This document shows positions 495 to 17,484 of a DNA stretch of 64,000 nucleotides, one piece after another (the first letter of the stretch is position 1; each line of letters begins with the position of its first letter). This DNA is from Pseudobutyrivibrio sp. ACV-2. Its GTDB lineage: Bacteria; Bacillota; Clostridia; Lachnospirales; Lachnospiraceae. Under the pieces are notes generated by a model, which had not been told where the DNA came from, did no database searches, and worked only from the letters and a program-made list of their open reading frames with translations. Both the position numbers and the translations under genes were made by a program. The DNA is taken from positions 62,001 through 126,000 of the forward strand of contig NZ_FNQZ01000005.1 of the NCBI RefSeq assembly GCF_900107545.1, written 5' to 3'.

Positions 495-1562
495 TTATTG
501 TAATGACATAATAAGCTCTTGAGCTTTTCTCTCTGAGTCGTAATCCTCTGACTTAGCTTCAACGTAACCATTGTGGCTGTAGATAGAGATTACTTCCTTA
601 CCAGCATCTGTGTTACCGATGTTGATGAATGCCTTTGAAAGGGCTGCCTTGAAAGCATCGTCCATGATAGGAGATGACTTGCTTACGCTGATTGTATCGT
701 TGTAGATACCATCTGTTACACCAATAACATTTGTCTCATCCCAGATGCTTGCGCTTCTGCCGTACTCTGATGTCCATTTATCCTCGTTGTCGCGTCTAGC
801 GTCAGCGTATGTAACAAGTACATCTACCTGACCTGATGCAAGTCTTGAGAATGCAGTACCATAGTTGTCTGATAATGCTGTATGTGAAAGATCTGTAATG
901 TGCTTTCTATACTTGTCCTGAAGCCAAAGTGAAGGATAAATGTATCCTGCTGGAGATGAAGAATTCATTACGCTCCAGTTAAGTCCGTCTAAATCTTCCC
1001 ATGTAAGCTCTTCACCGCTGTTTACCTTTTCAGCAACAGCCTGACCAGCCTTTGAAGGGCCAGCAATGATAAGTGCTCTGTAGTATGTTACCTGATCTGA
1101 AGTAGCCTCTGTAGGCTTGTTGTCGTTCCAATCCTTTGCGCTATCGCTGTCAATTGAAAGACCATCTCTAGTTGCTGTAAGAAGTACGTCACAACCATCA
1201 TCATATAATACGTATGTACCACCTGGAATAAGTCCAACGTCGATAGTTCCAGCTGCAAGGCCTTCACCTACTGCCTCAAAGCTAGTTCCAACAGTGATAT
1301 CTACCTGACCAACCTCGTAACCAAGGCCTGCAAGCTCATCTGTGAGCATGTCCTTAAGTGGCTCTGTAGCTGTTACGATTTCGTCTGGCTCACGTGATGG
1401 TACGAAACCAATTGTTAATTTGTCAATTTTAACATTTTCTGAACCTGTTGTTCCTTCTGTTGTCTGTGTTGCTGTCTCTGTCTTTGAAGCATCGCTTCCG
1501 CAGCCAACGAACATTGACATTGCAACTGCACCGACAAGCATAGTAGAAATAAACTTCTTCAT
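495..1562 (-). CDS. phnD: Phosphate/phosphite/phosphonate ABC transporter substrate-binding lipoprotein
   Basis: Extracellular binding protein of a PhnCDE-type importer. The 355-residue product starts with a lipoprotein signal peptide; the lipobox FVGC places the lipidated cysteine near residue 21, and a Thr/Glu/Ser-rich linker follows. The mature domain opens with LTIGFVPSREPDE, the usual start of PhnD-family domains, and contains the DVGLIPGGTYVLY segment of this fold. The start is supported by a GGAGGGG site a few bases upstream. phnC follows downstream; a permease gene would be expected beyond the left edge. The ligand (phosphonate, phosphite or other) cannot be told from the sequence. 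Confidence 0.85.
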   Translation of the reverse strand: MKKFISTMLVGAVAMSMFVGCGSDASKTETATQTTEGTTGSENVKIDKLTIGFVPSREPDEIVTATEPLKDMLTDELAGLGYEVGQVDITVGTSFEAVGEGLAAGTIDVGLIPGGTYVLYDDGCDVLLTATRDGLSIDSDSAKDWNDNKPTEATSDQVTYYRALIIAGPSKAGQAVAEKVNSGEELTWEDLDGLNWSVMNSSSPAGYIYPSLWLQDKYRKHITDLSHTALSDNYGTAFSRLASGQVDVLVTYADARRDNEDKWTSEYGRSASIWDETNVIGVTDGIYNDTISVSKSSPIMDDAFKAALSKAFINIGNTDAGKEVISIYSHNGYVEAKSEDYDSERKAQELIMSLQ

Positions 1563-1736
1563 CTTTCCCCTCCTATAGGATATGATTATCGTTGTTATGC
1601 TACATTATAACACAGTTTTATGCAAGCACGATTTAATAACTGTTTTCATTTATATACAAAATCACAACATATATAAGAGCAACAATAGGATTTTTGTTGA
1701 TAAATCCTACATCATTTACCTCAAAATTCTTTCCAT

Positions 1737-1783
1737 AAAAAAACTTCTATATCTTAAATTACATTAAGATATAGAAGTCTTTT
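1737..1783 (-). terminator. Terminator after the Gfo/Idh/MocA oxidoreductase
   Basis: Long AT-rich stem (CTTCTATATCTTA paired with TAAGATATAGAAG) followed on the minus strand by seven T. It closes the glycoside operon on its 3' side. The rest of the 1563-1784 gap is AT-rich and should contain the phnD promoter; I see no further gene in it. Confidence 0.8.
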
Positions 1784-1784
1784 A

Positions 1785-2855
1785 TTACTCAAAATCTACA
1801 CTCTTACCAGTACGAGCTGACTCTCTTGCTGCTTCCATAAGTCGGAGGACACGACGTGTCTCAGGAATCTTTACAAGGAATTCTTCCTGTCCATCATATG
1901 CTCTTGCATAGTTTTCGAAATAGTTTTCATGTGTTGTATCAGCTATTGGAAGTGGCTCAGTGATAAGCTTTCCTTCTGGTGGTGGACCGAATGAACGTGT
2001 AGGGCCCGCTGCTGTCATAGTACGCTGACCTCCAACATTCTGAAGAAGGCCGTTTGTACGAACGATTGCACCCTGTGGATCAAATCCATCAAGGTAAGCT
2101 GTACCCTTGTTACCACCCATAATCCAGTGACGCTCGAACCACTTGTTGTCCATCTTATCTGTAAGGAAGTATGTACCAAGCTCAACCTCAGCCATAATTC
2201 CATTGTCAAACTTCATAAGAATCTTGAAGTAGTCATCAACCTCAAAGTTGATTACGTTTCTAACATCAGCAAATACTGACTTAATCTTTGCGCCTGGCAT
2301 CATCCAGAGCATCTGGTCAAGAAGGTGAACACCCCAGTCAAAGAGCATTCCGCCGCCTTCTGCAATATATACATGCCAATCGTGCATGTTTCCGTTAAAG
2401 CCATATAAGCTACTCTTGATGCTATATACATCACCAAGTGTCTCGCTGTCGTAAACGTTCTTCATTGTGCGGAAGTCCTTATCATAACGTCTCTGATGAT
2501 GAACTGTGAAGTTTACTCCGCACTCATCAACAACCTTTACCATGTCGTCAAGTTCCTCAAGGTTCATAGCAACAGGCTTTTCACAGATAATATCCTTGCC
2601 AGCACGTGCTGCCTGGATAACCAAATCATGATGCTGATTGTTGTTTGCTGCGATAAGTACAACATCCACCTCAGGATCGTTAAACATTTCTTCATTTGAA
2701 GCGTATCTCTTAATACCTTCCTTTACATCCTCAAGCTGCTTTGGGTCTTTATCTGAAATACCAACAACCTTATAGCCGTCGAGGCGTGTGAGCATTGACT
2801 CATGCTCGTGGCCCATGAAACCATGGCCGATAATACCAATCTTAATAGTTTCCAT
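1785..2855 (-). CDS. Gfo/Idh/MocA family sugar oxidoreductase (DgpA-like candidate)
   Basis: NAD(P)-dependent dehydrogenase of 356 residues. The N-terminal Rossmann fold shows IGIIGHGFMG at residues 6-15 and the CEKPVAMNLEE motif near residue 90. The C-terminal domain contains the GGGMLFDWGVHLLDQ stretch with the family's active-site His. Family members oxidise a sugar or cyclitol hydroxyl, often at C3. In characterised C-deglycosylation clusters a member of this family (DgpA in strain PUE) makes the 3-oxo-glycoside on which the deglycosidase acts. It is the last gene of the minus-strand run that includes such a deglycosidase, so that role is inferred from context. Ribosome binding site GAAAGG. 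Confidence 0.85.
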   Translation of the reverse strand: METIKIGIIGHGFMGHEHESMLTRLDGYKVVGISDKDPKQLEDVKEGIKRYASNEEMFNDPEVDVVLIAANNNQHHDLVIQAARAGKDIICEKPVAMNLEELDDMVKVVDECGVNFTVHHQRRYDKDFRTMKNVYDSETLGDVYSIKSSLYGFNGNMHDWHVYIAEGGGMLFDWGVHLLDQMLWMMPGAKIKSVFADVRNVINFEVDDYFKILMKFDNGIMAEVELGTYFLTDKMDNKWFERHWIMGGNKGTAYLDGFDPQGAIVRTNGLLQNVGGQRTMTAAGPTRSFGPPPEGKLITEPLPIADTTHENYFENYARAYDGQEEFLVKIPETRRVLRLMEAARESARTGKSVDFE

Positions 2856-2883
2856 AGTGTTTTCCTTTCTCTATATATTTGTA

Positions 2884-2935
2884 AAAAATAAAGTCGATAT
2901 CATTTATCTTGAATAAATAATACCGACTTTTTGGG
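2884..2935. terminator. Bidirectional hairpin terminator downstream of the AraC/GH39 gene
   Basis: Stem of about 18 pairs (AAGTCGATATCATTTATC against GAATAAATAATACCGACTT) with T runs on both sides. The same gap has a second GC-richer hairpin at 3030-3062 directly after the regulator's stop. It also has several TGCAA-type boxes between 2970 and 3035. Confidence 0.7.
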
Positions 2936-3064
2936 TTTTGTTCTCTTATAAACTTTTCAATATCTTGTATATTGTTGCAAGTGAATTTCGCGCCCATAGT
3001 TAAGATGCAATCAAGTTGATGTATTTATTGCAGAGGGGCAACTCCCTAAAGATTCCCTCTGCTC

Positions 3065-5473
3065 TTAATATTCAGGGAATACGTGAAGTACACAGAATTC
3101 CTCTGCCTCTAAATCCACCTCTATTGTAAGAAGCTCACCTCGTGATCTGATGTGGGAACGAGAAAGCTCTGGCAGACATATCTCCTGAATGTATTTGATT
3201 TCACTTCTTTCAAGCTTGCTATCATTGTTAAATTTAGACCATTCATCAATGATAGAACCATGATTAGCATTTACACTTCGACGCTTTACAACGTAGCCTG
3301 CATTTTCACTGACTCCTGCAAGCTTTATAACAAGCTTTTTGTGATCCTTTGTGTCAAAGTATGACTTTGCCTCCTCAACAGTGGCCTGATTCTCAGCATC
3401 GATGAAATAGCTGGAATTGTACCAAACCAGATTGAAGCATATAATCTGATATTCGTCATCTGCCACTCTGGTAACCATATAGTTATCACCTCTGGCTATA
3501 ACCTTGGTGCCCAAATGATTGAGCATCTTTATGGCATAGAAGATAGGCTTTCTGATAGTATCCTTTGATACAAGACCGCCACCGCCATTGATGATATTTC
3601 TTGCAGCGTAGGAATTGCACTGCCAATCGGTGGCAATCCATAAGCCCCAAACATCAATATCCTTGGCATACTTAACAATATTTCTTATTAACAGACAGCC
3701 TCTAAATGCACTGTCGTTAAGGTAATTGCGATTAGAGCAGGTAAGATTCCATTCGGCTACTACAAGCTTGCTTCTGTCAATATTAAGCTTGTCAAATGAA
3801 CGATAAATCAAATCGATTTCTGAGCCTTCGAATTCCTTGTCCTGTGAACGAACAAATGCTGCCTTTCCACCATCTAATCCCGTAATTGGTTTTGGAACAT
3901 ATGGAAAAACAATGGTTGAAATAAAATCTGGTGCATATTTTTGCTGAGTAAGCTTGGTAAGTACAGCTTCAAACTCTTTTGAAGCCTCTACACTTGCGCC
4001 TGCACTATATCCCACCTTTGCATTAGGAGCCAAAGTCTTGACGGTTTCTGCTATGAAAGAATACACATCTACAAAATCATATCCACCATCTATATAAAAA
4101 TCATCATAATTGCTGTGGAAGCCTTCCAAACCAATTTCAAAGCGCCAGTATGAGATTTCTTTTTCACCATATCTGCGTATAAGCGCTTTGAAGAACTGCT
4201 TGTACAGATTCTCCCAAACGCGCTCATCCTTGTACTTAATTCGAATATCCTCAAACCATGCTGATTCCTCTGGGTTTGTTACATTGGCATATGGTCTATT
4301 GGTGAAATCAAGCCATGGAGTAATTCTGTTTTCAACAAGGAAATCAAGTGCTTCGAAAATCATATCGAAGTTGTAATCGCCTACTGTAACACCGTCAGAT
4401 ACCATTGTTTTGGTATTGAATATCATCCATATTCTGGCATAGGTGAATCCAATTTCTTTAGCCAGGTACTGAATGTGGTACTGGTTATTGGCACGTAAAA
4501 TATCATGGATAAAGCCTACATTTACTAGGCGATTCCAGTTACGCTTTAAATCCTCAGATTTTTTAACATCAATAAAGGCATCTACAAGTGCTTCTGGCTT
4601 GCTGTCGTCATCTGCTCGCTTATACTCAGTTTCGATTTTTTCCCTAATATCCTCATCAACGATGGTTTCCTTTGCAACCTGGCCCTTCATTTTCTGACGA
4701 TATTCTGTAGGTGCCATGTTGTAGATTTCACGGAATACCTTTGTAAATGCTGATGCATTAGAGAAACCACAGTCCATGGCTATTTTAGTCATGTTCTTCT
4801 CAGTGTATAAAAGCTCATCGATGGCGTAGCGGGTACGCACCTGATTTACATATTCTGCGAAATAAGTACCGGTCTGCTTTTTAAATAGTCGGGAAAGGGT
4901 AGATGTAGAGGTGTACATCTGCTTGGCTAAATCTGAAAGGCTGATACCGTCCTGATAATTGGTATGTACATAGTGGATAATAATCTGAAGTTTTTCATCT
5001 GCATCGTAGTTTTCAGATATCTCAGTATTGGTATCATCTATCATGTAATGCTCTACCAGCTCATCTAAAAGCTTGTAAAGCATACTATAAATAAGACTTT
5101 GAGTCTTTTTTAAGGATGTAACATGCTGATAAACAATATCACGACATAAACCTATAACCCCGTCATAGGATTTTGTTTTGTCTGTGGCACTATTACAAAG
5201 GAAAAAGCTGTTTGGCTTTTTTAATATATGAACCAAAATCTGGTAATCATATTTGATAGAGCAAACAATACTTTTTTCAACAGTCTCAATACTGTGCTGG
5301 ATACTGGAATTGATAACGAGAACATCGTCTCTTTCTAGCACAAAAACTGTATCCTTAAGCTTTACTTTTATACTTCCCTCGATAACATATAAAAGCTCAA
5401 CATCTGTGTGCAGATGCTGAGTTTTGGCCATGTCTCTATATATGTCTACTTGAAATTGGTTATAGCTATTCAT
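3065..5473 (-). CDS. AraC-family regulator fused to a GH39-like glycosidase domain
   Basis: Cytoplasmic transcription factor of 802 residues. An N-terminal cupin-like sensor (about 1-70) is followed by an AraC double helix-turn-helix at about 157-264, with ISLSDLAKQMYTSTSTLSRLF and IAMDCGFSNASAFTKVFRE visible. A TIM-barrel region like GH39 beta-xylosidases fills about 310-700. The two expected catalytic glutamates can be placed: E450 in WRFEIGLEGF, and E574 in VVAEWN. However, the usual Asn-Glu-Pro around the acid/base Glu is Leu-Glu-Gly. The barrel may therefore bind a sugar ligand rather than cut it. The ATG at 5473 is chosen because GAGGAG lies just upstream. It sits between the deglycosidase genes and the oxidoreductase, so it probably controls this cluster. 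Confidence 0.85.
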   Translation of the reverse strand: MNSYNQFQVDIYRDMAKTQHLHTDVELLYVIEGSIKVKLKDTVFVLERDDVLVINSSIQHSIETVEKSIVCSIKYDYQILVHILKKPNSFFLCNSATDKTKSYDGVIGLCRDIVYQHVTSLKKTQSLIYSMLYKLLDELVEHYMIDDTNTEISENYDADEKLQIIIHYVHTNYQDGISLSDLAKQMYTSTSTLSRLFKKQTGTYFAEYVNQVRTRYAIDELLYTEKNMTKIAMDCGFSNASAFTKVFREIYNMAPTEYRQKMKGQVAKETIVDEDIREKIETEYKRADDDSKPEALVDAFIDVKKSEDLKRNWNRLVNVGFIHDILRANNQYHIQYLAKEIGFTYARIWMIFNTKTMVSDGVTVGDYNFDMIFEALDFLVENRITPWLDFTNRPYANVTNPEESAWFEDIRIKYKDERVWENLYKQFFKALIRRYGEKEISYWRFEIGLEGFHSNYDDFYIDGGYDFVDVYSFIAETVKTLAPNAKVGYSAGASVEASKEFEAVLTKLTQQKYAPDFISTIVFPYVPKPITGLDGGKAAFVRSQDKEFEGSEIDLIYRSFDKLNIDRSKLVVAEWNLTCSNRNYLNDSAFRGCLLIRNIVKYAKDIDVWGLWIATDWQCNSYAARNIINGGGGLVSKDTIRKPIFYAIKMLNHLGTKVIARGDNYMVTRVADDEYQIICFNLVWYNSSYFIDAENQATVEEAKSYFDTKDHKKLVIKLAGVSENAGYVVKRRSVNANHGSIIDEWSKFNNDSKLERSEIKYIQEICLPELSRSHIRSRGELLTIEVDLEAEEFCVLHVFPEY

Positions 5474-5512
5474 AAAACTCCTCAAAATCTAAATTACAAA
5501 AACACTTTACAC

Positions 5513-5523
5513 AGTATAGCACA
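5513..5523 (-). promoter_or_regulatory. Extended -10 promoter of the AraC/GH39 gene
   Basis: On the minus strand TGTGCTATACT gives an extended -10 (TG, one base, TATACT) about 40 bases before the regulator's start. It lies just after the terminator hairpin at 5523-5554, so the regulator probably has its own transcript. Confidence 0.45.
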
Positions 5524-5554
5524 AAAGAGGAAGAAGCAAAATGCCCCTTCCTCT
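5523..5554 (-). terminator. Terminator between the deglycosidase large subunit and the AraC/GH39 gene
   Basis: Arms AGAGGAAG and CTTCCTCT enclose a 13-base loop and are followed by TTTTG on the minus strand. The tail is short, so it may be only a partial terminator. Confidence 0.55.
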
Positions 5555-5634
5555 GAAGTATATGTTATGTATGCTTTGGCTATTCGCCGATACACTTTGC
5601 TTAGCACCAGCAAGCTGGTGTAGTATTGGCTCGC

Positions 5635-6690
5635 TTACTCACCAATACACTTTGCCATAGCAGCCTGGTGGCGGCGAACCTGTTCGATTGAATCTACATC
5701 GAGATCCATTCTAAGGTGCTCTCCACCTTCGTACTCTGAGCTTAAGAAGCCCTTGTAACCTGCCTTCTTAAATGCTTCGATAACTTCTGGAAGTGCTACC
5801 GCTGTCTCCTGAAGATCTTCGTGAACATTGTAGAACTTAGCATGTGTATGGAAGATATAATCGATATTGTCGATGATATCCTGTGGATCAGACCATGAGT
5901 ATGTGAATGATGTACCAGCATACTCTAAGTCTGCTGGGCCGCCGCCTGCAGCCTTTACAGCATCCATCATTTCAGCCATGCCGTTTGCCATACGATATTC
6001 CATGTTGGCCTTGCCTAAATTAAGGTCATACTTAATCTTTGTGAAGCCCTTTGCTACGCGGCTTGCGTATGCGTCATCAACAATCTTTATGCACTCTTCC
6101 TTTGCGCCGTGACGACGAGCCTTGTCACGAACAACATCAGGAATGTTCTTGCAGAAGATACCCATATCTGGAATAAATCCAAAGTGCTTTGTACCTGTTC
6201 TGTTAATCATTTCCATGTAACCATCTGCCCAACCAGAGTTGAGTGAGAATGGAGCATGTACTTCAAGACCAATCTTAACACCAACCTTTTCAGCGTACTC
6301 AAGGCTGCCCTCGATTACATCCATTGGTGTTGATACAAGTGTACGGATTACAGGGAATCCAAGTAATGATGCAAGACGTAAATCACGCTCCATCATCTTA
6401 ACCTGCTCTTTTAATGTAAGAGTACGGTTATCAAAAATGTGGTTCTCCAAGAATGCATCATAGCATGATGGAGTAAGATTGTACTTCTTCATCCAATCAA
6501 ACCACCGGTCTCTGAAGCTCTGTGTTTCAATTGGAAGTGGAAACTGTCTAATCATCTGCTCAGCAAGAAGCTCTACACCTGTAGCTCCTGTTGCTGCTGT
6601 TTCTCTTAAGCATCCCTCTAAATCAAGCTTTCCAAGATAGAACTCGTCTTGATAGCTATAGAGAGACACACTTCTTTTAATATCGCTCAT
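5635..6690 (-). CDS. Sugar phosphate isomerase/epimerase-fold protein; C-glycoside deglycosidase large-subunit candidate
   Basis: A 351-residue TIM barrel. The metal-site residues expected for this fold are visible: E143 and H145 in GLEVHAP, D175 in IPDMG, H281/H283 in HTHAKFY and E319 in LSSEYEGG. Alone it could be read as a generic xylose-isomerase-like epimerase. The neighbouring gene encodes the small DUF6379-type subunit that pairs with such a barrel in known deglycosidases (DfgA/DfgB of Eubacterium cellulosolvens, CarB/CarC of soil bacteria, the Dgp pair of strain PUE). Those enzymes eliminate the aglycone from a 3-oxo-C-glycoside. Only 17 bases separate the two genes. The function is inferred from the pairing and the conserved residues. 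Confidence 0.8.
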   Translation of the reverse strand: MSDIKRSVSLYSYQDEFYLGKLDLEGCLRETAATGATGVELLAEQMIRQFPLPIETQSFRDRWFDWMKKYNLTPSCYDAFLENHIFDNRTLTLKEQVKMMERDLRLASLLGFPVIRTLVSTPMDVIEGSLEYAEKVGVKIGLEVHAPFSLNSGWADGYMEMINRTGTKHFGFIPDMGIFCKNIPDVVRDKARRHGAKEECIKIVDDAYASRVAKGFTKIKYDLNLGKANMEYRMANGMAEMMDAVKAAGGGPADLEYAGTSFTYSWSDPQDIIDNIDYIFHTHAKFYNVHEDLQETAVALPEVIEAFKKAGYKGFLSSEYEGGEHLRMDLDVDSIEQVRRHQAAMAKCIGE

Positions 6691-6707
6691 TTTTCTGTCC
6701 TCCTAAA

Positions 6708-7100
6708 CTAAATCTCGAATTCTATATTGCAAGGTGCCTCGATAACGAATGGCATGTATGATGGAGCAATCTTCTGGATAGCTTCAATACTGTGCTTGCC
6801 ATTTGAAAGGCCACCTTCCTTTAATACTGTTACTGTTGCATACTCGCCAAACTCCCAACGATATTCTGGGTCAATGACTGTTCTGCACTCTTCGAGTGTA
6901 AATGTATCTCCGTTTACTGTAAGTCTAATATCTTCTCTTTTGATGTCCTCGCCATCAACCTTAAGAATGATGTCGCGTAGAATTGAAAGAGTAAATGAAC
7001 GATAGTACTGTGCCTTCCAAGCAAATGAAAAGCCTACGACTTTGCCATTTTCTTCAACATTCTTAAAGCTGGCTGGATCATATATTGGTCTTCCTGCCAT
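6708..7100 (-). CDS. DUF6379 / C-glycoside deglycosidase small-subunit protein
   Basis: A 130-residue beta-rich protein with no signal peptide. The core YYRSFTLSILRDIILKVDGE followed by an NGDTFTLEE turn, WEFGEYATVTV and a GGLSNGKHSIE segment matches my memory of the DUF6379 family, the beta subunit of C-glycoside deglycosidases. In those complexes it packs against the TIM-barrel subunit and helps form the active site. It lies directly upstream of the barrel gene in the same transcript. The start has a clear AGGAGG site. Its presence is the strongest reason to call the locus a deglycosylation system rather than general sugar isomerisation. Confidence 0.8.
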   Translation of the reverse strand: MAGRPIYDPASFKNVEENGKVVGFSFAWKAQYYRSFTLSILRDIILKVDGEDIKREDIRLTVNGDTFTLEECRTVIDPEYRWEFGEYATVTVLKEGGLSNGKHSIEAIQKIAPSYMPFVIEAPCNIEFEI

Positions 7101-7140
7101 TTTATATTTCCTCCTAATTTCTTTGGCTTCCCTTTAGTCC

Positions 7141-7232
7141 GCCGGTTACGCTATCAAGTCAGGGTATCGATTTTTGAGATCGCTTGCGCTATACTCCTCA
7201 AAAACCGACACCCAGCCTTGACAGCTACCGGC
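7141..7232. repeat. Long inverted repeat, 18-base-loop class
   Basis: Arms of 38 and 36 bases (7141-7178 and 7197-7232) surround an 18-base loop containing ATCGCTTGCG and CTATACTC. The outer part starts GCCGGTTACG and ends AGCTACCGGC, the same edge signature as the 26-base-loop elements at 7301, 36341 and 41237. There is no T run, so it is not a simple terminator. It lies between the flavoprotein gene and the deglycosidase small subunit. Confidence 0.8.
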
Positions 7233-7300
7233 TCATCTAGGGATAAGATCTTTCTTTTAACTTTAGTTTTGTTTGTTATATAAAATCTTAGTTCTACGAG

Positions 7301-7386
7301 GGCTGGTAGGCTGCAATCTATATATGTCTTAAGCGAGGCATTCCTAGCCGAGTGTAGACATATATAGATTGTAGACGTAACCAGCC
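7301..7386 (-). repeat. Long inverted repeat, 26-base-loop class
   Basis: Arms 7301-7329 and 7356-7386 form a near-perfect stem. Read on the minus strand the loop contains ACACTCGGCTAGGAATG followed by CCTCGCTTA. It matches the loops at 36398-36423 and 41267-41292 in length and sequence, while the stem differs. Together with the element at 7141 it fills most of the 7101-7415 gap; no gene is seen there. Confidence 0.85.
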
Positions 7387-7415
7387 ACACAGCCTACGTG
7401 TTAGCTAAACGCACG

Positions 7416-8864
7416 TTAGTCTTCGATGTACTCTGCGGCTTCCATACCTGCAATACGGCCTGTGTTAACGGCGTATCCCATTGAGTTTCCTGGAAGTAAG
7501 AACATGTATGAATCATCATAGATGTTACATGAATCAGCACCTGCTGCGTAAAGTCCTGGGATAGGCATAAAGTCTTTATCGCATACTTCGCAGTTTTCGT
7601 TGATGCGGATTCCACCTACGGTACCGTATCCGCCTGGATGGAATGTTCCAGCGTAGAATGGACCCTTCTTTAACTTACGAAGGTATCTGTAGTTCTTGAA
7701 GAATTCCTCATCTCTGCCTTCACAGTAATCGTTGTAATCGTCTACTGTCTCCTCAAGTACTTCTGGATCTACACCAATCATCTCAGCGAGCTCCTCGATA
7801 GTATCTGCCTTGAAGAACTGCTTAGAGCCCTTTGCAATAAGCTCATCCATCTCATCATAGAATGAAGATACGTCTGGATCTGGAGTAACAAGTGATGTTA
7901 CATCAACGCCATTCTTAACGTATGACTTAACGATTGTTGAATCAACAATTGAGAATAACTTCTTATCCTTCTGGTGATTAGCAACATTTGAAAGATATGT
8001 TGTGTTCTGCATGAACTCTTCGTTCATTACACGCTTGCCAAATGCATTTACAAGAAGGTTTGGCTGTCTAAGAACGTTCTTTACAGAAGCGCCAGCTTCC
8101 TCGCCACCACCTACATCACAAGCAGACTCAATTCTAACTGGAAGGTGATCAGCACCTGCCTCCCAAGCCATCTTAAGACCATCGCCTACAAGACCTGGAA
8201 TAGCAAAATTGAATACATCCTTACCAAACTCTACTCCGATTTCTTCTTTGATGAGCTCTGGGTTACATCCTGCACCACCTGTAGCGATAACAGCTGCTTT
8301 ACACTCGATAGTGAATTCCTCACCATCCTTGTTTACTGCAAGAACACCACAAACCTTGCCTTCATCATCTTTAAGAATCTTCTTACCTGCTGTCTCAAGA
8401 AGTACCTTTACGCCAAGCTCCTGAGCCTTGTTAAGAAGAGCCTTATTCATGTGACCAGCTGCACGAGGTCCAATCTTGTTACCAGTCTTTACGATGTGCC
8501 ATGTAGCCTCTGACTGTGGGAAGTATTTGAAAGCGCCTTCGAACTCAACGCCCATATCCTCAAGCCACTCAATAGTTTCTGCAGACTGTTCGAAATATCT
8601 CTTAACAAGTCTTGCATCTACATTGTAGTGTGTGTAATCCATGAACATGTTAAATGCTTTTTCAACAGTAACATCAATCATTTGCTCCTGCTGATATTTT
8701 GTACCAATACCAAGTGGTCCCATACCCATGTTGGCAGCACCACCAGTGATAGCTGCTTTTTCAATAACGATAACCTCTGCGCCATCCATAGCTGCCTGAA
8801 CAGCTGCTGACATACCAGATGGTCCACCTGCAATAACAACCAACTGTGTCTTTAAGTTTTCCAT
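7416..8864 (-). CDS. FAD-dependent oxidoreductase, fumarate reductase/urocanate reductase-like
   Basis: Cytoplasmic flavoprotein of 482 residues. The dinucleotide-binding start is VVIAGGPSGMSAAVQAAMDG (about 9-28) with the downstream IEKAAITGGAANMG. The C-terminal FAD segment is GGYGTVGGIRINENCEV followed by PIPGLYAAG. The family mostly reduces activated carbon-carbon double bonds (fumarate, urocanate, steroid enones) or runs the reverse dehydrogenation. No heme domain, covalent-FMN domain or export signal is present, so electrons must come from a soluble partner. The two iron-sulfur genes upstream are the obvious source. In this context a sugar enone is a plausible substrate. The start has AAGGAG. 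Confidence 0.85.
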   Translation of the reverse strand: MENLKTQLVVIAGGPSGMSAAVQAAMDGAEVIVIEKAAITGGAANMGMGPLGIGTKYQQEQMIDVTVEKAFNMFMDYTHYNVDARLVKRYFEQSAETIEWLEDMGVEFEGAFKYFPQSEATWHIVKTGNKIGPRAAGHMNKALLNKAQELGVKVLLETAGKKILKDDEGKVCGVLAVNKDGEEFTIECKAAVIATGGAGCNPELIKEEIGVEFGKDVFNFAIPGLVGDGLKMAWEAGADHLPVRIESACDVGGGEEAGASVKNVLRQPNLLVNAFGKRVMNEEFMQNTTYLSNVANHQKDKKLFSIVDSTIVKSYVKNGVDVTSLVTPDPDVSSFYDEMDELIAKGSKQFFKADTIEELAEMIGVDPEVLEETVDDYNDYCEGRDEEFFKNYRYLRKLKKGPFYAGTFHPGGYGTVGGIRINENCEVCDKDFMPIPGLYAAGADSCNIYDDSYMFLLPGNSMGYAVNTGRIAGMEAAEYIED

Positions 8865-8973
8865 TTCGTTGTTCTCCTTCTCTAAATAAAACCTTTCGGT
8901 CTGTTCACAATTTCTGATATTAATTTACCATCTGATGGGGATAACAACTATTTTCAGTTTCCTTAAACCTTAT

Positions 8974-9001
8974 TCTATATTGCATTCAAATTTTCTCTCA
9001 A
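8974..9001 (-). promoter_or_regulatory. Promoter for the fumarate-reductase-like gene
   Basis: TTGAGA and TATAGA separated by 16 bases on the minus strand, about 110 bases before the start. An inverted repeat with TGCA ends (TGCAATAAAAG / CTTTTGTTGCA, near 9011-9037) lies just upstream of the -35 and could be an operator. Confidence 0.45.
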
Positions 9002-9057
9002 AAATCAGATTGCAATAAAAGATAAGCTTTTGTTGCATTGTATTTTTAACATATAGC

Positions 9058-9089
9058 AAAAGGCACGCCCCCGTAGTGACGCGCCTTTG
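9058..9089 (-). terminator. Hairpin after the NuoF-like gene
   Basis: Short GC-rich stem (GGCGCG with CGTGCC, one G-T pair) followed by TTTT on the minus strand, directly after the NuoF-like stop. Probably a partial terminator, since the next gene has its own promoter. Confidence 0.55.
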
Positions 9090-9110
9090 TGTAATCTTTT
9101 ATTTATGTAA

Positions 9111-10217
9111 TTACCATTTTCCAACCTTAGTCTTCTTCTTTGGAAGCTTAGGAAGCTTTGTAGCTGTTTTGATACAGCCTTCGTCGCAGGCAGATACGCA
9201 CTTGCCACACTGCTCGCAAAGGTCCTGATCGATAATGTGGATGAAACCATCCTTTCCTTCGATAGCATCCTCTGGGCAAGCGTCGATACAGTCACCACAG
9301 CCCTGGCATTCATCTGGATCGATGTAGTAAAGCTCTGCAGCCTTGTAGCACTTGCCACACTTGCAGGTCTTTCTCTTGATATGATCATCGAACTCATCAG
9401 GGAAAAGTGCAATAGCAGATGTAAGAGGCTTTGTCATGTTCTGGCCAAATGGACAGTATGCTCCAATACTGATAAGCTCTGAAACCTCTTTGATAAGGTC
9501 AAGGTCACCTGACTTTGCCTTGCCCGTTGTCATTTCCGTTACAATCTGTCTGAACTGGGATGTACCCTCACGACAAAGAACACACTTACCGCATGATGCG
9601 TTGTAGGCCTGGTTCATAAGCTGAACGCAAGCATCAACCATACACTCGCTGCTGTCATATACTGTGATTGAGCTGAATTTTTCTGTTGCCTCAAGCTTAA
9701 GCTCAGCTGCCTCTGCAGGAGCCATAAATGTACCCTTTAAGCCGCCAAGCAATACTGCCTTTGTTCCCTCAAGAGCGACTACCTCTCCAACTATCTGTCC
9801 AACAGTTGCCTTTTTGATTTCAGTTTTCTCGCCAACATTTACAGCAACAAATTTATCATTAAAACCGTTCTTAATTCCATAAGCAGCCTCTGGAGTTACA
9901 ACTGAAACTGCCTTATCCTCATACACTGCCACGTATTCATCTTGAATCATAGGACGTGGAATGTTTCCGCCAAGTACCTGAGCCACAGAATATGGGTTGG
10001 TCAGAGTAGGTGAGCATGCGCTTGTATAGCGCACATCACCATTTAATCCCTCAACCTTTTCTCCCTCAGGAAGAAGATACATTATATCTGCATCAAGCTC
10101 TGAGGCATACTTTTCAACACCTGCAACCACCTCTGAAAGATAGTTTTTCATTAAATACATTGAAAGAGGTGCTTTTATATCATCACTAACACAACTAACA
10201 ACTAATAAGTTTTTCAT
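9111..10217 (-). CDS. NuoF-like iron-sulfur protein lacking the FMN/NADH domain
   Basis: A 368-residue electron-transfer protein. Its middle matches the C-terminal part of NuoF/HydB: SCGKCVLCREG gives cysteines 209, 212 and 215, and GAYCPFG adds the fourth near 255, for one 4Fe-4S cluster. A CKCGKC motif near 285 and two ferredoxin-type 4Fe-4S motifs (CQGCGDCIDACP, CEQCGKCVSACDEGC) complete the tail. The glycine-rich FMN/NADH-binding segment of true NuoF is not visible, so it cannot take electrons from NADH alone. It overlaps the stop of the upstream gene (TAATG), which points to translational coupling with the FAD/NAD(P)-binding partner. It is not part of a complex I operon. Confidence 0.8.
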   Translation of the reverse strand: MKNLLVVSCVSDDIKAPLSMYLMKNYLSEVVAGVEKYASELDADIMYLLPEGEKVEGLNGDVRYTSACSPTLTNPYSVAQVLGGNIPRPMIQDEYVAVYEDKAVSVVTPEAAYGIKNGFNDKFVAVNVGEKTEIKKATVGQIVGEVVALEGTKAVLLGGLKGTFMAPAEAAELKLEATEKFSSITVYDSSECMVDACVQLMNQAYNASCGKCVLCREGTSQFRQIVTEMTTGKAKSGDLDLIKEVSELISIGAYCPFGQNMTKPLTSAIALFPDEFDDHIKRKTCKCGKCYKAAELYYIDPDECQGCGDCIDACPEDAIEGKDGFIHIIDQDLCEQCGKCVSACDEGCIKTATKLPKLPKKKTKVGKW

Positions 10218-12340
10218 TACTGCTGACCTCCTTCCTCTGATATATAATCGCTCCAGAACTTCTGTGGAGAGATTTGAACACGAAGGTCACACTGTAAGCA
10301 ACGACTAGCCTCACAGCCTGCCTTGCTGCAATCGAAGCCTAAATCCATAGGCTCGAAGTTTGTCTTTCTAGACTCTGAGTCTGTAACTGTTGGCTCTGTT
10401 CTGTGAGTCTTTGTAAGCTCTGGGTTCTTGCCAATGCATGGATTTGCAATCTGCTCTGGGGCAAGATTTTCCTCGATATTACCATCACCGCCAAGGAATA
10501 TATCAATCTCGCTAACTGCAGCTCTTGCCTCTGCAATTGCAGCTATAACTGAACGTGTACCTGTTACTGCATCACCCGCTGCATAGACACCCTCTACAGA
10601 TGTCTTATGACCATCTGCTGTGACAATGCGTCCTCTGTTGAGCTCAAGACCAAACTCCTCTGTAATATCTGGATGCTGTCCAACTGCAAAAATAACGGTA
10701 TCAGCTGGGAATGTAACTGTAGAATCTGGAATACGTGTAAACTCTGGTCCCTTAGGTCCAAATTTAAGTCCCTCGATTCCTGTTACAGTAAGGCCTGTCA
10801 CCTTGCCATTTTCTGATTCGATGGCATCAAATGTACGTGAGTTCTCTACGATGATTCCATCTTCCTTAGCCCAGGTAACTTCTTCTTCAGAAGCAGTCAT
10901 CTTGTCAGGGGCCTCAAGACATGTCATAACTACATGCTTTGCTCCAAGACGAAGTGCAGACTCTGCACAGTCGATAGCAACGTTACCACCACCGAGAACT
11001 ACTACATTTTCTCCAACTGGAAGTGGCTCATCAAGGTTGATAGAGCGTAAGAAATCAGCGTTAAGGTACACGTTTGGTAAATCATTTCCTTCTAGTGGAA
11101 GTCGGTTACCAGCGTGTGTTCCAACTGATACAAATACTGCATCATACCCCTCAGCCTTAAGCTCTGCTGCTGACTTAACATCTACACCACACTTGATTTC
11201 AACACCAATTGACTCAATCTCTGCGATTTCCTTATCAAGAACCTCGCGAGGCAATCTATATGAAGGAATACCGTATCTCATCTGGCCGCCTGCCTTTGGA
11301 AGCTTCTCGAAAATAGTAACCTCATGGCCAAGCTTCTTGAGATAATAGCCTGCTGTAAGACCTGCTGGGCCTGCACCAATGATTGCAACCTTTTTACCTG
11401 TTGCATCCTTCTGGAATGCATTTGCTTTCCAGCTTCCGTCATCCTGGCTTGCTGCAAATCTCTTAAGGTTTCTGATTGAAAGTGGTCCGTCCAAGTGCTG
11501 TCTCTTACACTGAAGCTCACAAGAGTGAACACAGATGTAGCCCAAGCATTCTGGAATAGGAGCCTTCTCGCGCACTGTTGCTGCAGCGGCTGGATAATTT
11601 CCTTCTTTAATAAATCTGATGTATTTTGGAACGTTGATATGAGCTGGGCACCCCTCGCTACATGGGACAAGTGTCATCTCACGACTTAAGCTTGGATCAT
11701 CCTTGAATACTCCAACCTTGTCACGGATTGAACCAGTAGGACAAACCTCAACACAAGCGCCACAGAACTGACAGCCAGCCTCCTCAAGGCTATTACCATT
11801 GATGACAACCTTCATTCTGCCATCAACCTTTTCAAACTTAAGTGCTCCAACACCACGAAGCTCTGAACAAGCACGTACGCAGCGTCCGCAAAGGATGCAA
11901 CGATACATTTCGTGAAGCATAAGTGGATTTTCTTCATTTTCAATAAGAGGTAATTTCTGCTGACGGAATTCTCTACCAGCATCACCTACGTACTGTGAAA
12001 TAGAAGCAAGGTGGCACTTACCATATTTTGGACAGCCTACACACTCACTTGGGTGAGTCTTGAACATAAGCTCAACCGAAAGCTTACGAACCTTTTCAGC
12101 TGTTTCTTCTTTAGTGCTGATTACCATTCCTTCTTTAACCTTTGTTGAACAAGAAGTTATAACACCATCAACACCTTCCTGCTTTACAACGCAAAGACGA
12201 CATCCACCATTTGGATGTAAATCACTATGATGGCAAAGATGTGGGATATAGATTCCGTTATCAAGAGCAGCCTCAAGGACTGTCTTTGACTCATCACATG
12301 TAATAGCCTTGCCATCGATTATCAAATTGACTGTTGCCAT
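10217..12340 (-). CDS. NuoG-like iron-sulfur / glutamate-synthase-small-subunit fusion
   Basis: A 707-residue redox protein. N-terminal 2Fe-2S domain (C36, C47, C50, C64), then a NuoG-type His-Cys3 cluster (H96, C100, C103, C109). Two 4Fe-4S motifs follow around 148-158 and 190-200. A GltD/NfnB-like region comes next, with its own cysteine motif (CSEGCPAHINVPKY near 227-240), an FAD site VAIIGAGPAGLTAG near 318-331 and an NAD(P) site VVVLGGGNVAIDCAES near 445. A final CEASRCLQC lies near the C terminus. It would oxidise NAD(P)H and pass electrons to the NuoF-like partner and then to the flavoprotein. Start supported by AAGGAG. Confidence 0.85.
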   Translation of the reverse strand: MATVNLIIDGKAITCDESKTVLEAALDNGIYIPHLCHHSDLHPNGGCRLCVVKQEGVDGVITSCSTKVKEGMVISTKEETAEKVRKLSVELMFKTHPSECVGCPKYGKCHLASISQYVGDAGREFRQQKLPLIENEENPLMLHEMYRCILCGRCVRACSELRGVGALKFEKVDGRMKVVINGNSLEEAGCQFCGACVEVCPTGSIRDKVGVFKDDPSLSREMTLVPCSEGCPAHINVPKYIRFIKEGNYPAAAATVREKAPIPECLGYICVHSCELQCKRQHLDGPLSIRNLKRFAASQDDGSWKANAFQKDATGKKVAIIGAGPAGLTAGYYLKKLGHEVTIFEKLPKAGGQMRYGIPSYRLPREVLDKEIAEIESIGVEIKCGVDVKSAAELKAEGYDAVFVSVGTHAGNRLPLEGNDLPNVYLNADFLRSINLDEPLPVGENVVVLGGGNVAIDCAESALRLGAKHVVMTCLEAPDKMTASEEEVTWAKEDGIIVENSRTFDAIESENGKVTGLTVTGIEGLKFGPKGPEFTRIPDSTVTFPADTVIFAVGQHPDITEEFGLELNRGRIVTADGHKTSVEGVYAAGDAVTGTRSVIAAIAEARAAVSEIDIFLGGDGNIEENLAPEQIANPCIGKNPELTKTHRTEPTVTDSESRKTNFEPMDLGFDCSKAGCEASRCLQCDLRVQISPQKFWSDYISEEGGQQ

Positions 12341-12648
12341 ACTTTTAGACTCCTTCTAAATATTTGAAAACTTAAACCGAATTTTTTTTAAATCTATTTT
12401 TGACATTACTATTGTATGGCACAGGCTGATTTCACTCTTGCCATTAATTTTATTTTTTATAGAAATAAATTGCACAAGAAGATTTTACTAAAATCTCAGG
12501 TGCAACATTTCGCTTTATTTTATTGCACCTTTACAAATCACTTTTCCAGGGGATTACTCAGAACCATCCGAATTATAGAAATTGTTTTCTGAATATAGTA
12601 AAATAATCATATCAAATAACTTTCAATTACTTGCATCGGGGAACAGTT
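12341..12648. promoter_or_regulatory. Divergent intergenic region with nested TTGCAC palindromes
   Basis: This 308-base gap separates the minus-strand redox operon from the plus-strand dgkA-like gene. Between about 12468 and 12531 a perfect palindrome, AGATTTTA-C-TAAAATCT, is nested inside TTGCAC/GTGCAA ends. The right-hand GGTGCAA is in turn the left arm of a second inverted repeat ending TTGCACC. This looks like an operator array for the redox operon. No gene is seen here. Confidence 0.5.
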
Positions 12649-13026
12649 ATGGAAAAGAAACAACCTCTCTTCAAAAGCTTCGGCTTTGCTTTTGAAGGAA
12701 TCTTCAACACTATAAAGACAGAACGCAATATTAAAATCCATCTCTTCGCCACAATAATGGTAATTATATTTGGATTTATTCTAAATATCTCATACCTGGA
12801 ATGGCTGATTTGCCTTCTTCTGTTCGGACTTATCACCTCTCTTGAGCTTGTTAATACATCCCTTGAGGCTGTAGTAGATTTGGCTACTCAGGAGCGAAAG
12901 CCTCTTGCAAAGAAAGCAAAGGACGCCGCTGCAGGAGCAGTTCTTTATTCATCGATTATTGCCGCCATCATAGGCGGAATAATATTTTTTCCAAAACTAT
13001 ATAACTTCATTATTAATTTAACTTAG
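12649..13026 (+). CDS. dgkA: Undecaprenol kinase / diacylglycerol kinase family protein
   Basis: Small integral membrane lipid kinase of 125 residues with three hydrophobic segments, the usual size for Gram-positive DgkA. The family's conserved features are present: FAFEGIFNTIKTERNIKIH at the N terminus, SLELVNTSLEAVVDL in the second helix region, and KDAAAGAVLY near the last helix. In Gram-positives the enzyme phosphorylates undecaprenol to recycle the cell-wall lipid carrier. The ATG at 12649 follows GGGGA. It heads a plus-strand trio with a phasin-like protein and a UbiB kinase. Confidence 0.9.
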   Translation: MEKKQPLFKSFGFAFEGIFNTIKTERNIKIHLFATIMVIIFGFILNISYLEWLICLLLFGLITSLELVNTSLEAVVDLATQERKPLAKKAKDAAAGAVLYSSIIAAIIGGIIFFPKLYNFIINLT

Positions 13027-13044
13027 TTACAGGAGGACTTACTT

Positions 13045-13326
13045 ATGGCAGAAAACTTAAATCCAATCACAGATGGTGTAAAGAAATTATTATTGGCAGG
13101 CGTAGGTGCTGTTGCCCTTACTGCTGAGAAGGCTGACGAAATCGTCAATACACTTGTTGATAAAGGTGAAATCACTGTAGAACAGGGTAAGGAATTAAAT
13201 CAGGAGCTGAAGCACCCCTTTAATGAAAGAAAGAACAAGTCTGGCGAAAAGGATATCGACGGCTTTGTAAATGGACTTAGTGCAGATGAATTGGCAAAAC
13301 TTAAAGAGGCTTTAAAAGACAAATAA
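13045..13326 (+). CDS. Phasin-like small helical protein
   Basis: A 93-residue protein rich in Lys and Glu. It resembles the phasin-like proteins often found beside UbiB kinases. The N-terminal amphipathic stretch PITDGVKKLLLAGVGAVALTAEKADEIVNTL is followed by KGEITVEQGKELNQEL, and the tail is charged. The helix may bind a membrane or lipid surface. The start has AGGAGG, and the next gene begins two bases after its stop, so co-translation with the UbiB kinase is likely. Its molecular function is unknown. Confidence 0.65.
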   Translation: MAENLNPITDGVKKLLLAGVGAVALTAEKADEIVNTLVDKGEITVEQGKELNQELKHPFNERKNKSGEKDIDGFVNGLSADELAKLKEALKDK

Positions 13327-13328
13327 TA

Positions 13329-14948: not shown

Positions 14949-14956
14949 CGGTCAAA

Positions 14957-14998: not shown

Positions 14999-15982
14999 TT
15001 AACCATTAATTGTAGTTTCAAAATTTTTGATGTGTTCATTCATAAGTTCATCAAGCTTCTCTTTATTTGCCATGATTTTAGGACCACAGATACTACCGAA
15101 GCTCTGTATTTCAACTGTGTGCTCACGAAGTCCCTTAAAGGTTCCACGGGCTCTCTCCTGCTCTTCCTTTGTAAATTCAACAGAAATACCATTGTTCACA
15201 ATACTTAGCTGACCATGAATTCCACAGATTGGGCAGGTCACTGTGGTAGAACCTGGGTTTACCATAAGAAGTCTCTGGTGGCACACTGGGCAAACCTCTT
15301 CTGGTTTACCCTCTGGACGGAAAAACTCTACTGAATCATCATTTAATCCAAGAGCTGTTCTTTTTCCCATTTCATGCATATCATCAATTAGCTTTTCATC
15401 AAGATATGGATTTCCAGTTGTACCCATGCAGTTTGCATTGTAATTTCCCATTACTTTCATCATTGGTGGAAAACCAAAGATGTGAAGGGAAGCTGTTCCC
15501 ATTGATGTCCAATCATCTGTAGTTGCACCACCAACTGAAATATAAGAAACTGTTCTTTTCTTTAGTCTCTCCATTGGAAAATCATCTGCATTTCCTGGAA
15601 GTTCACCGGCTCTTCTTTTATCCAGTACATAAGTGATTGCCGAATAATCATGACGACATGAAAATCTATCAACGAAATCCTTGAACTGACCTACAGGCTG
15701 AAGAGCATATACAGGTGCTCCCAAAATAATCGAATCAGCCTCGCGGATCTTGTCCTCAAGAACCTGAAAATCATCCTTAAAAATACATACATTATCCTTG
15801 CCCTTTTCAAGTGCACCTGAGCATGCACCACAGCCACGGCAACGGCCAATCTTCATGTTTATTGTATTTACAAATTCAATCTCAGCATCTGGGCAAGCTT
15901 CCTTTGCTCCGAATAATGCTTCCTTTACTAAAATATCTGTGTTTGCATTCTTTTTTCCAAAAGAAATACCTAAAATCTTCAT
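14999..15982 (-). CDS. Flavodoxin-family NAD(P)H-dependent oxidoreductase with zinc-ribbon-like tail
   Basis: A 327-residue protein. The first ~190 residues are the flavodoxin-like fold of multimeric FMN reductases, with ILGISFGKKNANTD at the phosphate-binding loop and the CRGCGACSG cysteine motif near residues 48-56. The tail has two CxxC pairs (CPVCH and CPICG) that look like a metal-binding ribbon. It may reduce a small substrate or pass electrons within the redox system nearby. It shares its strand with the GPH transporter upstream, with about 60 bases between. Substrate unknown. Confidence 0.8.
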   Translation of the reverse strand: MKILGISFGKKNANTDILVKEALFGAKEACPDAEIEFVNTINMKIGRCRGCGACSGALEKGKDNVCIFKDDFQVLEDKIREADSIILGAPVYALQPVGQFKDFVDRFSCRHDYSAITYVLDKRRAGELPGNADDFPMERLKKRTVSYISVGGATTDDWTSMGTASLHIFGFPPMMKVMGNYNANCMGTTGNPYLDEKLIDDMHEMGKRTALGLNDDSVEFFRPEGKPEEVCPVCHQRLLMVNPGSTTVTCPICGIHGQLSIVNNGISVEFTKEEQERARGTFKGLREHTVEIQSFGSICGPKIMANKEKLDELMNEHIKNFETTING

Positions 15983-16044: not shown

Positions 16045-17484
16045 CTATTTATTTTCGTTAAGTATAGCCAAAACCTTTGCTTCGTTTTCAATGCCAATTG
16101 CATTTGTCATCTTAATCATGGCAAATGGTATGATGGCAAGAAGAAACATAAGTGCTGGGCCAAAATTGATTACTGCGTTCATTTTTGTTACAACGTCTGC
16201 ACTAAGCTGTGCGTTGGCTACAAATCCAACAGCACCAAGAATAATTATTCCTATTGCTCCGCCAATTGCATTTCCAAGCTTTGTAGAAAATGAAATTACA
16301 GAATAGATCATTCCATCTGCTCTGTTTCCAGTCTTAAGCCAGATATCATCAATAACTTCACCAATAAGACTAAAGGTTGCAATACCTGCAAAATTCACAG
16401 CACCATAAAGGAATGAAACAATCACCATTGGAACAACTGCTTTTGCTTCTCCTGCGAAGAAAAATCCAACACAGCATAATGCTTCAAGCATGCAGGAAAT
16501 GCAGCATAGAACCTTTTTATCTATTTTTTGAGCAAGATATGGAATGTAAAAGTTTGGAACCAGCATTCCAATCTGTAAGGCTGTACCACCTGCTGCAATT
16601 AATGCAGGATTCTCAAAAACATTAAAGAAATAATAGGCCATAATGCCAAGTCTTCCAAATACACCTGTTAAAAACAGAAGCATTCCAAGAAGAAGCATGG
16701 CTGTATTTTTATCCTTGATAACTGTGCGGAATGAAATCCAAAGATTCTTTACCACATTTTGTTTTTCACTGCTTCCTTTAACACCACCACTGACAACTTC
16801 CTTTGTAGAGAACACACATGTAAACAAACAAGGAATCGCAATTAAAGAAAATACGATAGTTGCCCCTAAATAACCTCTTTCACTGTTTGCATCTCCATTG
16901 CCAAAGAATAGAATCATTGGCATTGTAATAGCACCCATCAGAATGCCTGCAACAGAACCCATTGCACCTTTAAATGAATTTAAGGCAACACGCTCTTTAT
17001 TTACAGTTGTAATAGAATTTGCAAGTGAACCTACAGAAATACTTACTGCTGTGTATGCCATACCGCAAAGAATATAGCTGATGGCACACCACAATATCTT
17101 CCATACACCTGGCAGATTAAGATTTAAAAATGTAAGGCAGGTGCAAAGAGAAAGTACCGGTGCACCAAACAAAATATAAGGACGAAATCTTCCCCATTTT
17201 GATCTTGTATTTTCAGCTATTGAACCAAACATCGGATCATTAATGGCATCCCAAATTCTTGCAATAAGCATAATAGCTGATATTACTAAAGGGGTAAGCC
17301 CTACAATATTTGTATAGTAAATTGTCAAATAAGAGCTAATCATTGTCCAGCTGAACTGAGTTCCAGCCTCGCCCATTCCATAGCCCAACTTTCTCCAAAA
17401 GGAAAGACCTACTCTTTCATTACTTTTAGTATCTTTATTCTCCATAGTAGCTTTTCCAGACACTACCTCCACTGTTGCATCCAT
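16045..17484 (-). CDS. GPH-family (MFS) glycoside/sugar transporter
   Basis: Integral membrane symporter of 479 residues with about 12 hydrophobic segments. Typical glycoside-pentoside-hexuronide motifs include KLGYGMGEAGTQFSW at the start, ARIWDAINDPMFGSIAENTRSKWGRFRPY after the second helix, and a GDxxD-like EVIDDIWLKTGNRADGM late in the protein. It probably imports a glycoside or sugar with a cation. Its position between a LysR regulator and a reductase, next to the deglycosylation cluster, suggests that it brings in that pathway's substrate. GGAGG precedes the start. Confidence 0.85.
   Translation of the reverse strand: MDATVEVVSGKATMENKDTKSNERVGLSFWRKLGYGMGEAGTQFSWTMISSYLTIYYTNIVGLTPLVISAIMLIARIWDAINDPMFGSIAENTRSKWGRFRPYILFGAPVLSLCTCLTFLNLNLPGVWKILWCAISYILCGMAYTAVSISVGSLANSITTVNKERVALNSFKGAMGSVAGILMGAITMPMILFFGNGDANSERGYLGATIVFSLIAIPCLFTCVFSTKEVVSGGVKGSSEKQNVVKNLWISFRTVIKDKNTAMLLLGMLLFLTGVFGRLGIMAYYFFNVFENPALIAAGGTALQIGMLVPNFYIPYLAQKIDKKVLCCISCMLEALCCVGFFFAGEAKAVVPMVIVSFLYGAVNFAGIATFSLIGEVIDDIWLKTGNRADGMIYSVISFSTKLGNAIGGAIGIIILGAVGFVANAQLSADVVTKMNAVINFGPALMFLLAIIPFAMIKMTNAIGIENEAKVLAILNENK

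Follow-up and report, generated by a model that had tools for sequence, protein, structure and literature searches.

C-glycosyl flavones are common in grasses and herbs and resist ordinary glycosidases. The closest described systems for their cleavage are DfgAB with DfgE of Eubacterium cellulosolvens and DgpBC with DgpA of strain PUE, in which two C-glycoside deglycosidase (CGD) subunits of the PF19906 and AP_endonuc_2 families, with conserved metal and catalytic residues, are accompanied by a separate Gfo/Idh C3-oxidase. A locus of the same make-up lies in a 64,000-nucleotide stretch of the 3.66 Mb genome of Pseudobutyrivibrio sp. ACV-2 (contig C26; NZ_FNQZ01000005.1, positions 62,001 to 126,000 of the forward strand; hereafter the window), together with a three-gene redox set that ends in FRD-1, a fumarate-reductase-fold flavoprotein. 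It differs from the Dfg and Dgp systems in that its alpha subunit (CGDA) belongs to another clade, closest among solved chains to 8qvc_A, and in that the redox set has no counterpart in the 20 kb around the DfgA/DfgB-like pair of the same genome, on contig C23, nor in the accessible portions of the Dfg and Dgp literature.

The O-glycoside eliminase operon of Agrobacterium (AtOGE, AtHYD and a Gfo gene) also proceeds by oxidation and then beta-elimination, as proposed for the window, but its sugar product is processed by hydration and reduction, with Gfo as the reducer, and the part of the report available to us mentions no iron-sulfur (Fe-S) or FRD module (PMC10628242). A Catenibacillus genome paper describes dgpBC clusters, flavone reductase (FLR), Fcr and phloretin hydrolase, with no mention of such a reductase module in its accessible sections (PMC11170127). 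The deglycosidase and oxidase are of known kinds; within the open-licence literature we found no account that links C-glycoside cleavage to a flavoprotein of fumarate-reductase or similar type.

The gene content and distribution set out below make it highly probable that the window holds a locus for C-glycoside catabolism, with flavone C-glucosides the most likely substrate, and that its redox set is functionally tied to the cleavage enzymes. We also regard it as reasonably probable that one CGDA clade takes part in a near-obligate reductive pathway, in which a dedicated NADPH/Fe-S/flavoprotein ene-reductase, built by joining transhydrogenase-type parts to a catalytic subunit of the fumarate-reductase fold, would reduce a cleavage product (an aglycone-side ene or the sugar enone), pull the near-reversible cleavage to completion and make plant C-glycosides electron acceptors for gut anaerobes. 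If so, rumen and gut bacteria would have C-glycosides as a further kind of electron acceptor, and fumarate-reductase-fold flavoproteins would have a wider range of uses than is now known.

The deglycosidase pair and the attached redox set

A sequence-only reading of the window had placed on a single strand a deglycosidase-type small subunit, a metal-site-conserving TIM barrel 17 bases from it, a Gfo/Idh/MocA oxidoreductase and a sugar-linked regulator, with three redox genes upstream, and the open reading frame (ORF) list bears out the genes, their coordinates, the strand and the spacing. All are open ORFs on the minus strand, transcribed in the order NuoG-GltD, relay, FRD-1, beta subunit (CGDB), CGDA, AraC-GH39 regulator and Gfo/Idh oxidoreductase. 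CGDB matches the Pfam family PF19906, 'C-glycoside deglycosidase beta subunit' (E 1.1e-35; 122.3 bits against a cut-off of 27.6), and its best solved relatives are DfgB (E 5e-15), DgpB1 and DgpB, which confirms the family proposed for it. The barrel likewise proved to be a deglycosidase alpha subunit, matching 8qvc_A (E 1.1e-76) and then DfgA (7bvs_A, E 2.4e-45). Alignment to DfgA, together with motif spacing relative to AgCGD2 numbering, places the metal ligands of CGDA at E143, D175, H283, K285 and E319 and the catalytic residues at H145 and E321; the AgCGD2 Mn site comprises E147, D179, H269, K271 and E305, with H149 and E307 as catalytic residues (PMC8563793). All seven positions are invariant in five aligned sequences, window included, and the metal site is kept as had been claimed. 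Among the best 80 of 103 relatives, the nearest to CGDA is from another Pseudobutyrivibrio (L025, 97% identity). The Gfo/Idh protein has as its best PDB match 9m37_A, 'P581a DgpA2 and isoorientin complex' (E 2.4e-128), and also matches DgpA of strain PUE (7xr9_A, E 2.2e-23), suggesting a putative DgpA-type glycoside C3-oxidase. A search for P581a and for PDB entries 8QVC, 8UN2, 8UMC, 9M3B and 9M37 brought up no paper with a relevant title, and these proteins are described here by their PDB titles only.

Pfam domains agree with the earlier description of the three redox genes, namely a NuoG N terminus with a GltD-like subunit, a NuoF-like C terminus with 4Fe-4S domains, and an FAD_binding_2 protein. 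For the GltD-like part of the 707-aa protein the best solved relatives are subunits of the bifurcating transhydrogenases NfnABC/StnABC (9bov_A, E 1e-118; 8oh5_C, E 1.7e-104), and the AlphaFold2 (AF2) model of the relay (mean pLDDT 81.4) matches HydB/StnB chains, indicative of a NuoF/HydB-type fold. The window proteins are thus homologous to the GltD-like/NuoG-like (NADP(H), Fe-S domains) and NuoF-like subunits of these enzymes, but they differ from them in three respects. The GRGGxGF motif, which we take to be the FMN/NADH site of NuoF-type subunits, is absent from all 16 aligned relay sequences, in every one of which the Fe-S cysteines are invariant; the ORF list of the locus contains no NuoE-like gene; and a fumarate-reductase-fold flavoprotein is added, sometimes fused to the relay. 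A single gene encodes both relay and flavoprotein in L010 (which is the L082 locus), L021 and L022, and relay-FRD fusions lie near CGDA in L075 (which starts at a contig end), L078, L082 and L098. We infer that electrons would pass from NADPH to FAD, then through the Fe-S clusters of the first subunit and those of the relay to the FAD of FRD-1, and finally to the substrate.

Aligned to flavocytochrome c3, FRD-1 carries E246, Q286, Y413 and L456 in place of the substrate residues His365, Arg402, His504 and Arg544, and it scores 185.5 bits against TIGR01813, below the cut-off of 285.45. With the substrate residues replaced, a fumarate reductase is ruled out. The best NCBIfam match, over the full length, is the vinyl phenol reductase VprA (NF053717), but the 306.7 bits are far under the curated cut-off of 600. 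An alignment of nine FRD-1 sequences with eight of the more distant type FRD-2 (defined below) has 119 invariant positions in common; at the former carboxylate site FRD-1 has the hydrophobic residues M454 and L456, whereas FRD-2 has N/P and T/I.

Co-occurrence of FRD-1 with one deglycosidase clade

The distribution of these genes was examined in a family sample of 299 genomes (298 genera; the named relatives belong to the Lachnospiraceae) and in named loci from GTDB species genomes (the best 80 of 103 relatives). To count as FRD-1, a protein had to share 67% identity or more with that of the window in the family sample, or 64% or more in the named genomes; FRD-2 denotes proteins at 50% or below. 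Two further copies, at 54 and 58%, fall between and occur in genomes also holding FRD-1. Membership of the window's CGDA clade in the family sample (at least 66% identity) was read only beside CGDB matches. In G170 the CGDA gene is cut by the contig end, G012 (CGDB below cut-off) was left out, and no CGDA-like gene stands beside the match in G015. Searches of the family sample for relay, FRD and FLR genes scored only part of the candidates per genome, and the strict threshold of the relay search, which returned 8 of the 299 genomes, missed relay genes seen in L007 and L010.

CGDB was found in 26 of the 299 genomes and FRD-1 in nine. The window's CGDA clade is present in ten genomes from ten genera, nine of which have FRD-1, against none of the 289 others (Fisher 2e-16); the single exception, G224 (= L036), has FRD-2 only. 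Fifteen genomes in which the fetched deglycosidases were all of other clades have no FRD-1. The named loci give a similar picture: 75 are of the CGDA clade, with CGDB adjoining in 73, and an FRD gene (at least 55% identity) lies within 10 kb of CGDA in 27 of the 75, many of which are truncated, always on the same strand (27/27). Where 8 kb is available on both sides, 15 of 32 loci have FRD, 11 of these with relay genes, and the 17 without FRD have no relay genes either. At genome level, checked for 45 of the 75 loci (the 27 with FRD near, plus 18 that lack it there but have 6 kb or more of flank), FRD-1 is present in 41, the remainder being L036, L092, L046 and L073. The two samples share at least five genomes (G148/L032, G287/L081, G075/L082, G292/L076 and G224/L036, matched by coordinates or by length of contig) and are not independent.

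Gene order varies among the CGDA-clade loci. On a quick CGDA tree labelled for a nearby FRD, with truncated loci counted as lacking it, 16 changes are required, seven of them forced by strongly supported branches, compared to a mean of 22.5 for shuffled labels (0 of 500 as low as 16); without the truncated loci there are 11. The arrangement is clustered, yet it must have arisen or disappeared several times, and this speaks for a functional link more than for a single layout passed down by descent. Because FRD-1 and the deglycosidase consistently occur together in relatives, the reductase very probably acts on something used or made by the cleavage reaction. The two points on which the sequence-only reading had staked itself thus came out in its favour, with the small subunit inside the deglycosidase beta family and the redox genes co-occurring with the pair. 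The bacterial fate of the products after C-C cleavage is poorly known, and a reductase that tracks one deglycosidase clade almost one-to-one provides a handle on that step.

Two side observations concern the distribution of the pairs. In the Pseudobutyrivibrio siblings L026 and L099 a DfgA/DfgB-like pair follows directly behind CGDA; its counterpart in the window's genome is the C23 pair, by eye nearly identical to solved DfgA/DfgB. Streptococcus varani (L092), outside the Lachnospiraceae, carries two deglycosidase pairs and no FRD match; one pair is of the window's CGDA clade (70%), a possible case of lateral transfer.

Candidate substrates of FRD-1

In the pathway that we favour, the Gfo enzyme would oxidise C3 of the sugar and CGDB/CGDA would then break the C-C bond by metal-assisted beta-elimination. 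The three-part reductase would deliver NADPH electrons via NuoG-GltD and the Fe-S clusters of the NuoF-like relay to the FAD of FRD-1, which would reduce an activated C=C bond, either in the released aglycone or in a flavanone- or chalcone-like derivative formed with the help of an FLR-type enzyme, and not in the sugar fragment. The reduction would dispose of reducing power and pull a nearly thermoneutral cleavage forward; density functional theory puts the cleavage of 3''-oxo-puerarin at +0.22 kcal/mol (PMC11239390), so that reducing either product would pull the reaction. We hold this reading of the locus as a whole, an NADPH-fed reductase attached to C-glycoside catabolism and most likely acting on the aglycone side, tentatively and at slightly less than even confidence; for the substrate alone, we give the aglycone side about an even chance. 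It is favoured by the lack of FRD-1 in the 15 genomes with other deglycosidase clades, by the association of FRD-2 with phloretin hydrolase, by the hydrophobic M454/L456 site, and by the presence of FLR-like genes in 9/9 FRD-1 genomes together with a window homologue in which the FLR active-site residues are largely kept. In the family sample, phloretin hydrolase scores over its cut-off in 12 of 15 genomes with FRD-2 only, 1 of 9 with FRD-1 and 6 of 275 others, and FRD-2, the sister clade, adjoins it in G126, G265 and G314.

Several points weigh against an aglycone-side substrate. The window's genome has no phloretin hydrolase, nor have 8 of the 9 FRD-1 genomes of the family sample or 37 of the 45 named CGDA-clade genomes, so that a dihydrochalcone would have no apparent onward use; the step linked to phloretin hydrolase in G314 has its own FRD-2; and FRD-1 tracks CGDA and not the genes of aglycone degradation. 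The AF2 model obtained for FRD-1 (mean pLDDT 67, below 50 over much of the active-site region) is too poor to define a pocket and was not used. Finally, the window's genome has neither TIM18, another barrel of the AP_endonuc_2 family, nor any gene close to Gfo28, the second Gfo gene, which fits reduction of the sugar, and the absence of TIM18 from five Pseudobutyrivibrio relatives leaves room for the same. That FRD-1 simply feeds phloretin hydrolase, as FRD-2 may do, is rejected, since the hydrolase occurs in only one of nine FRD-1 genomes and G314 has both kinds of FRD. As an observation on FRD-2 itself, a fused relay-FRD-2 gene stands beside phloretin hydrolase in L021 (7834-11937), L022 (8483-12049) and G314 (C30:23320-26085), possibly a system for reducing flavanones or chalcones in addition to the Fcr type already known.

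In the sequence-only reading, the redox genes reduce the sugar enone that CGDA/CGDB release, 1,5-anhydro-hex-1-en-3-ulose; this would make the sugar usable and turn it into an electron sink. The present data do not support this choice, and we consider it unlikely, although it is the strongest of the alternatives. In its favour, the CGD reaction yields the enone directly (PMC8563793), FRD-1 goes with a deglycosidase clade rather than with phloretin hydrolase, and TIM18, which we guess from its AP_endonuc_2 family and operon position to be a candidate hydratase for this enone, is missing from the window's genome and from the five Pseudobutyrivibrio relatives. By analogy with DgpBC/DfgAB chemistry, however, the other CGD clades should release the same sugar, and the restriction of FRD-1 to one clade, with 15 other-clade genomes lacking it, argues against the sugar enone as its substrate. 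The hydration and Gfo-reduction route offers a published fate for the sugar (PMC10628242), FRD-2 is found beside phloretin hydrolase, the FRD-1 site is hydrophobic, and on chemical grounds the enediolone, an electron-rich vinylogous ester, would be a poor hydride acceptor. Of the 27 genomes that have FRD-1 near CGDA, moreover, 15 carry TIM18, as do 14 of the 18 that do not (Fisher 0.20), which rules out FRD-1 as its general replacement. TIM18 (L005 5599-6519 and relatives) also recurs in C-glycoside loci at large, including Enterococcaceae loci without FRD nearby (L100-L104).

Alternatively, the substrate of the reductase could be the still uncleaved C-glycoside, as such or as its 3-oxo form (with reduction of the flavone ring, for example), the CGDA clade then accepting the reduced glycoside. 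Association with one clade only would be expected if that clade's substrate needs preparation, and FRD-1 often lies within the same gene block, but CGDA has the standard catalytic residues and known CGDs take oxidised, otherwise unreduced flavonoid glycosides, as far as the accessible text of the two reports goes (PMC8563793, PMC11239390), and we judge this improbable. Least probable of all, to the point that we give it little weight, is that FRD-1 and its relay form a general electron sink sharing a niche but not a pathway with the deglycosidase: relay homologues and FRD-2 do occur without the CGDA clade, next to genes of phloroglucinol type or others (L014, L017, L018, L020-L024), and FRD is near CGDA in little over a third of the often truncated loci (27/75; 15/32 when well flanked), but in the family sample FRD-1 occurs only in genomes with the CGDA clade (9/9), the clade spans ten genera, and the near-CGDA arrangement requires repeated gains or losses on the CGDA tree.

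Locus layout and neighbouring genes

Table 1. Features of the C-glycoside locus and its surroundings, in window coordinates
Feature	Position	Strand	Basis
NuoG-N-terminus + GltD-like subunit, 707 aa; probable NADPH-oxidising entry point	10217..12340	-	Pfam domains and solved relatives; 2Fe-2S/4Fe-4S domains
NuoF-like relay subunit, 368 aa	9111..10217	-	Pfam; AF2 model; Fe-S cysteines kept; no GRGGxGF
FRD-1, fumarate-reductase-fold flavoprotein, 482 aa; putative ene-reductase catalytic subunit	7416..8864	-	PF00890
Gap of dispersed palindromic repeats between FRD-1 and CGDB, 315 bases	7101..7415	-	Genome self-matches
CGDB, C-glycoside deglycosidase beta subunit, 130 aa	6708..7100	-	PF19906; DfgB match
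CGDA, C-glycoside deglycosidase alpha subunit, TIM barrel, 351 aa	5635..6690	-	Solved CGD alpha chains; residues
Terminator-like hairpin after CGDA, 13 pairs then T-rich tail	5526..5554	-	Consensus scan only
AraC-type regulator fused to GH39-like domain, 806 aa	3065..5485	-	PF12833, PF01229
Gfo/Idh/MocA oxidoreductase, putative glycoside C3-oxidase, 356 aa	1785..2855	-	9m37_A best PDB match
Flavone-reductase-like (FLR) flavodoxin-fold protein, 327 aa; probable functional neighbour	14999..15982	-	FLR 7d38_A match
Transporter of GPH type, 479 aa; possible glycoside importer	16045..17484	-	ORF; no family search run

The terminator-like hairpin lies just after CGDA, suggesting that the regulator and the Gfo gene may be transcribed apart from it. 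Between FRD-1 and CGDB, the gap is filled by repeats with 29 matches in the window's own genome, two of them inside the gap itself; the same palindromic repeats stand at window 7101-7405 and 41239-41318 and are scattered through the genome. The gap folds strongly as RNA (z-score -7.5), but a known RNA element is ruled out, there being no Rfam match in window 1-18600 and dispersed repeats in its place. In the three nearest siblings (L025, L026 and L099) the repeats are absent and FRD-1 and CGDB are about 20 bases apart; in L027 the spacing is about 120, and in L029 and L037 another Gfo gene lies between the two.

Beyond the redox set lies an FLR-like gene, a homologue of the FLR of gut bacteria (PMC7862272) and a neighbour of the set rather than part of it. 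Its only solved match is FLR itself (7d38_A, E 4.6e-36), with moderate similarity (127.6 bits). Of the activity-critical FLR residues G106, W149, H271 and I275 (PMC7862272), the window protein keeps the equivalents of the last three and has Ser for G106; a paralogue at L004 (3145-4101) appears by eye to keep all four. Of the 26 genomes with CGDB in the family sample, 17 have FLR-like genes, compared with 8 of the 273 others. These genes are largely limited to genomes with CGDB or FRD-2 (1 of 264 others) and stand directly beside deglycosidase pairs of several clades in L109, L111, L114, L120, L122, L125 and L132. Upstream of the window's FLR-like gene are a transporter, putatively of the GPH type by its likeness among loci, and then a LysR-type gene; to the left of the window are another FLR-like gene, another AraC-GH39 regulator and two further transporters.

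Two sets of genes recur near relay and FRD genes elsewhere. The relay/FRD contigs of L009, L014, L017 and L020 also carry phloroglucinol-pathway-like genes, for a short-chain dehydrogenase/reductase (SDR), a 3-hydroxyacyl dehydrogenase, a beta-keto acid cleavage enzyme, a thiolase and a CoA transferase (cf. PMC10470551). In two other genomes, genes of the acetate kinase and phosphate acetyl/butyryl transferase families lie near the redox set (L008 7871-9972 and L016 13920-14933).

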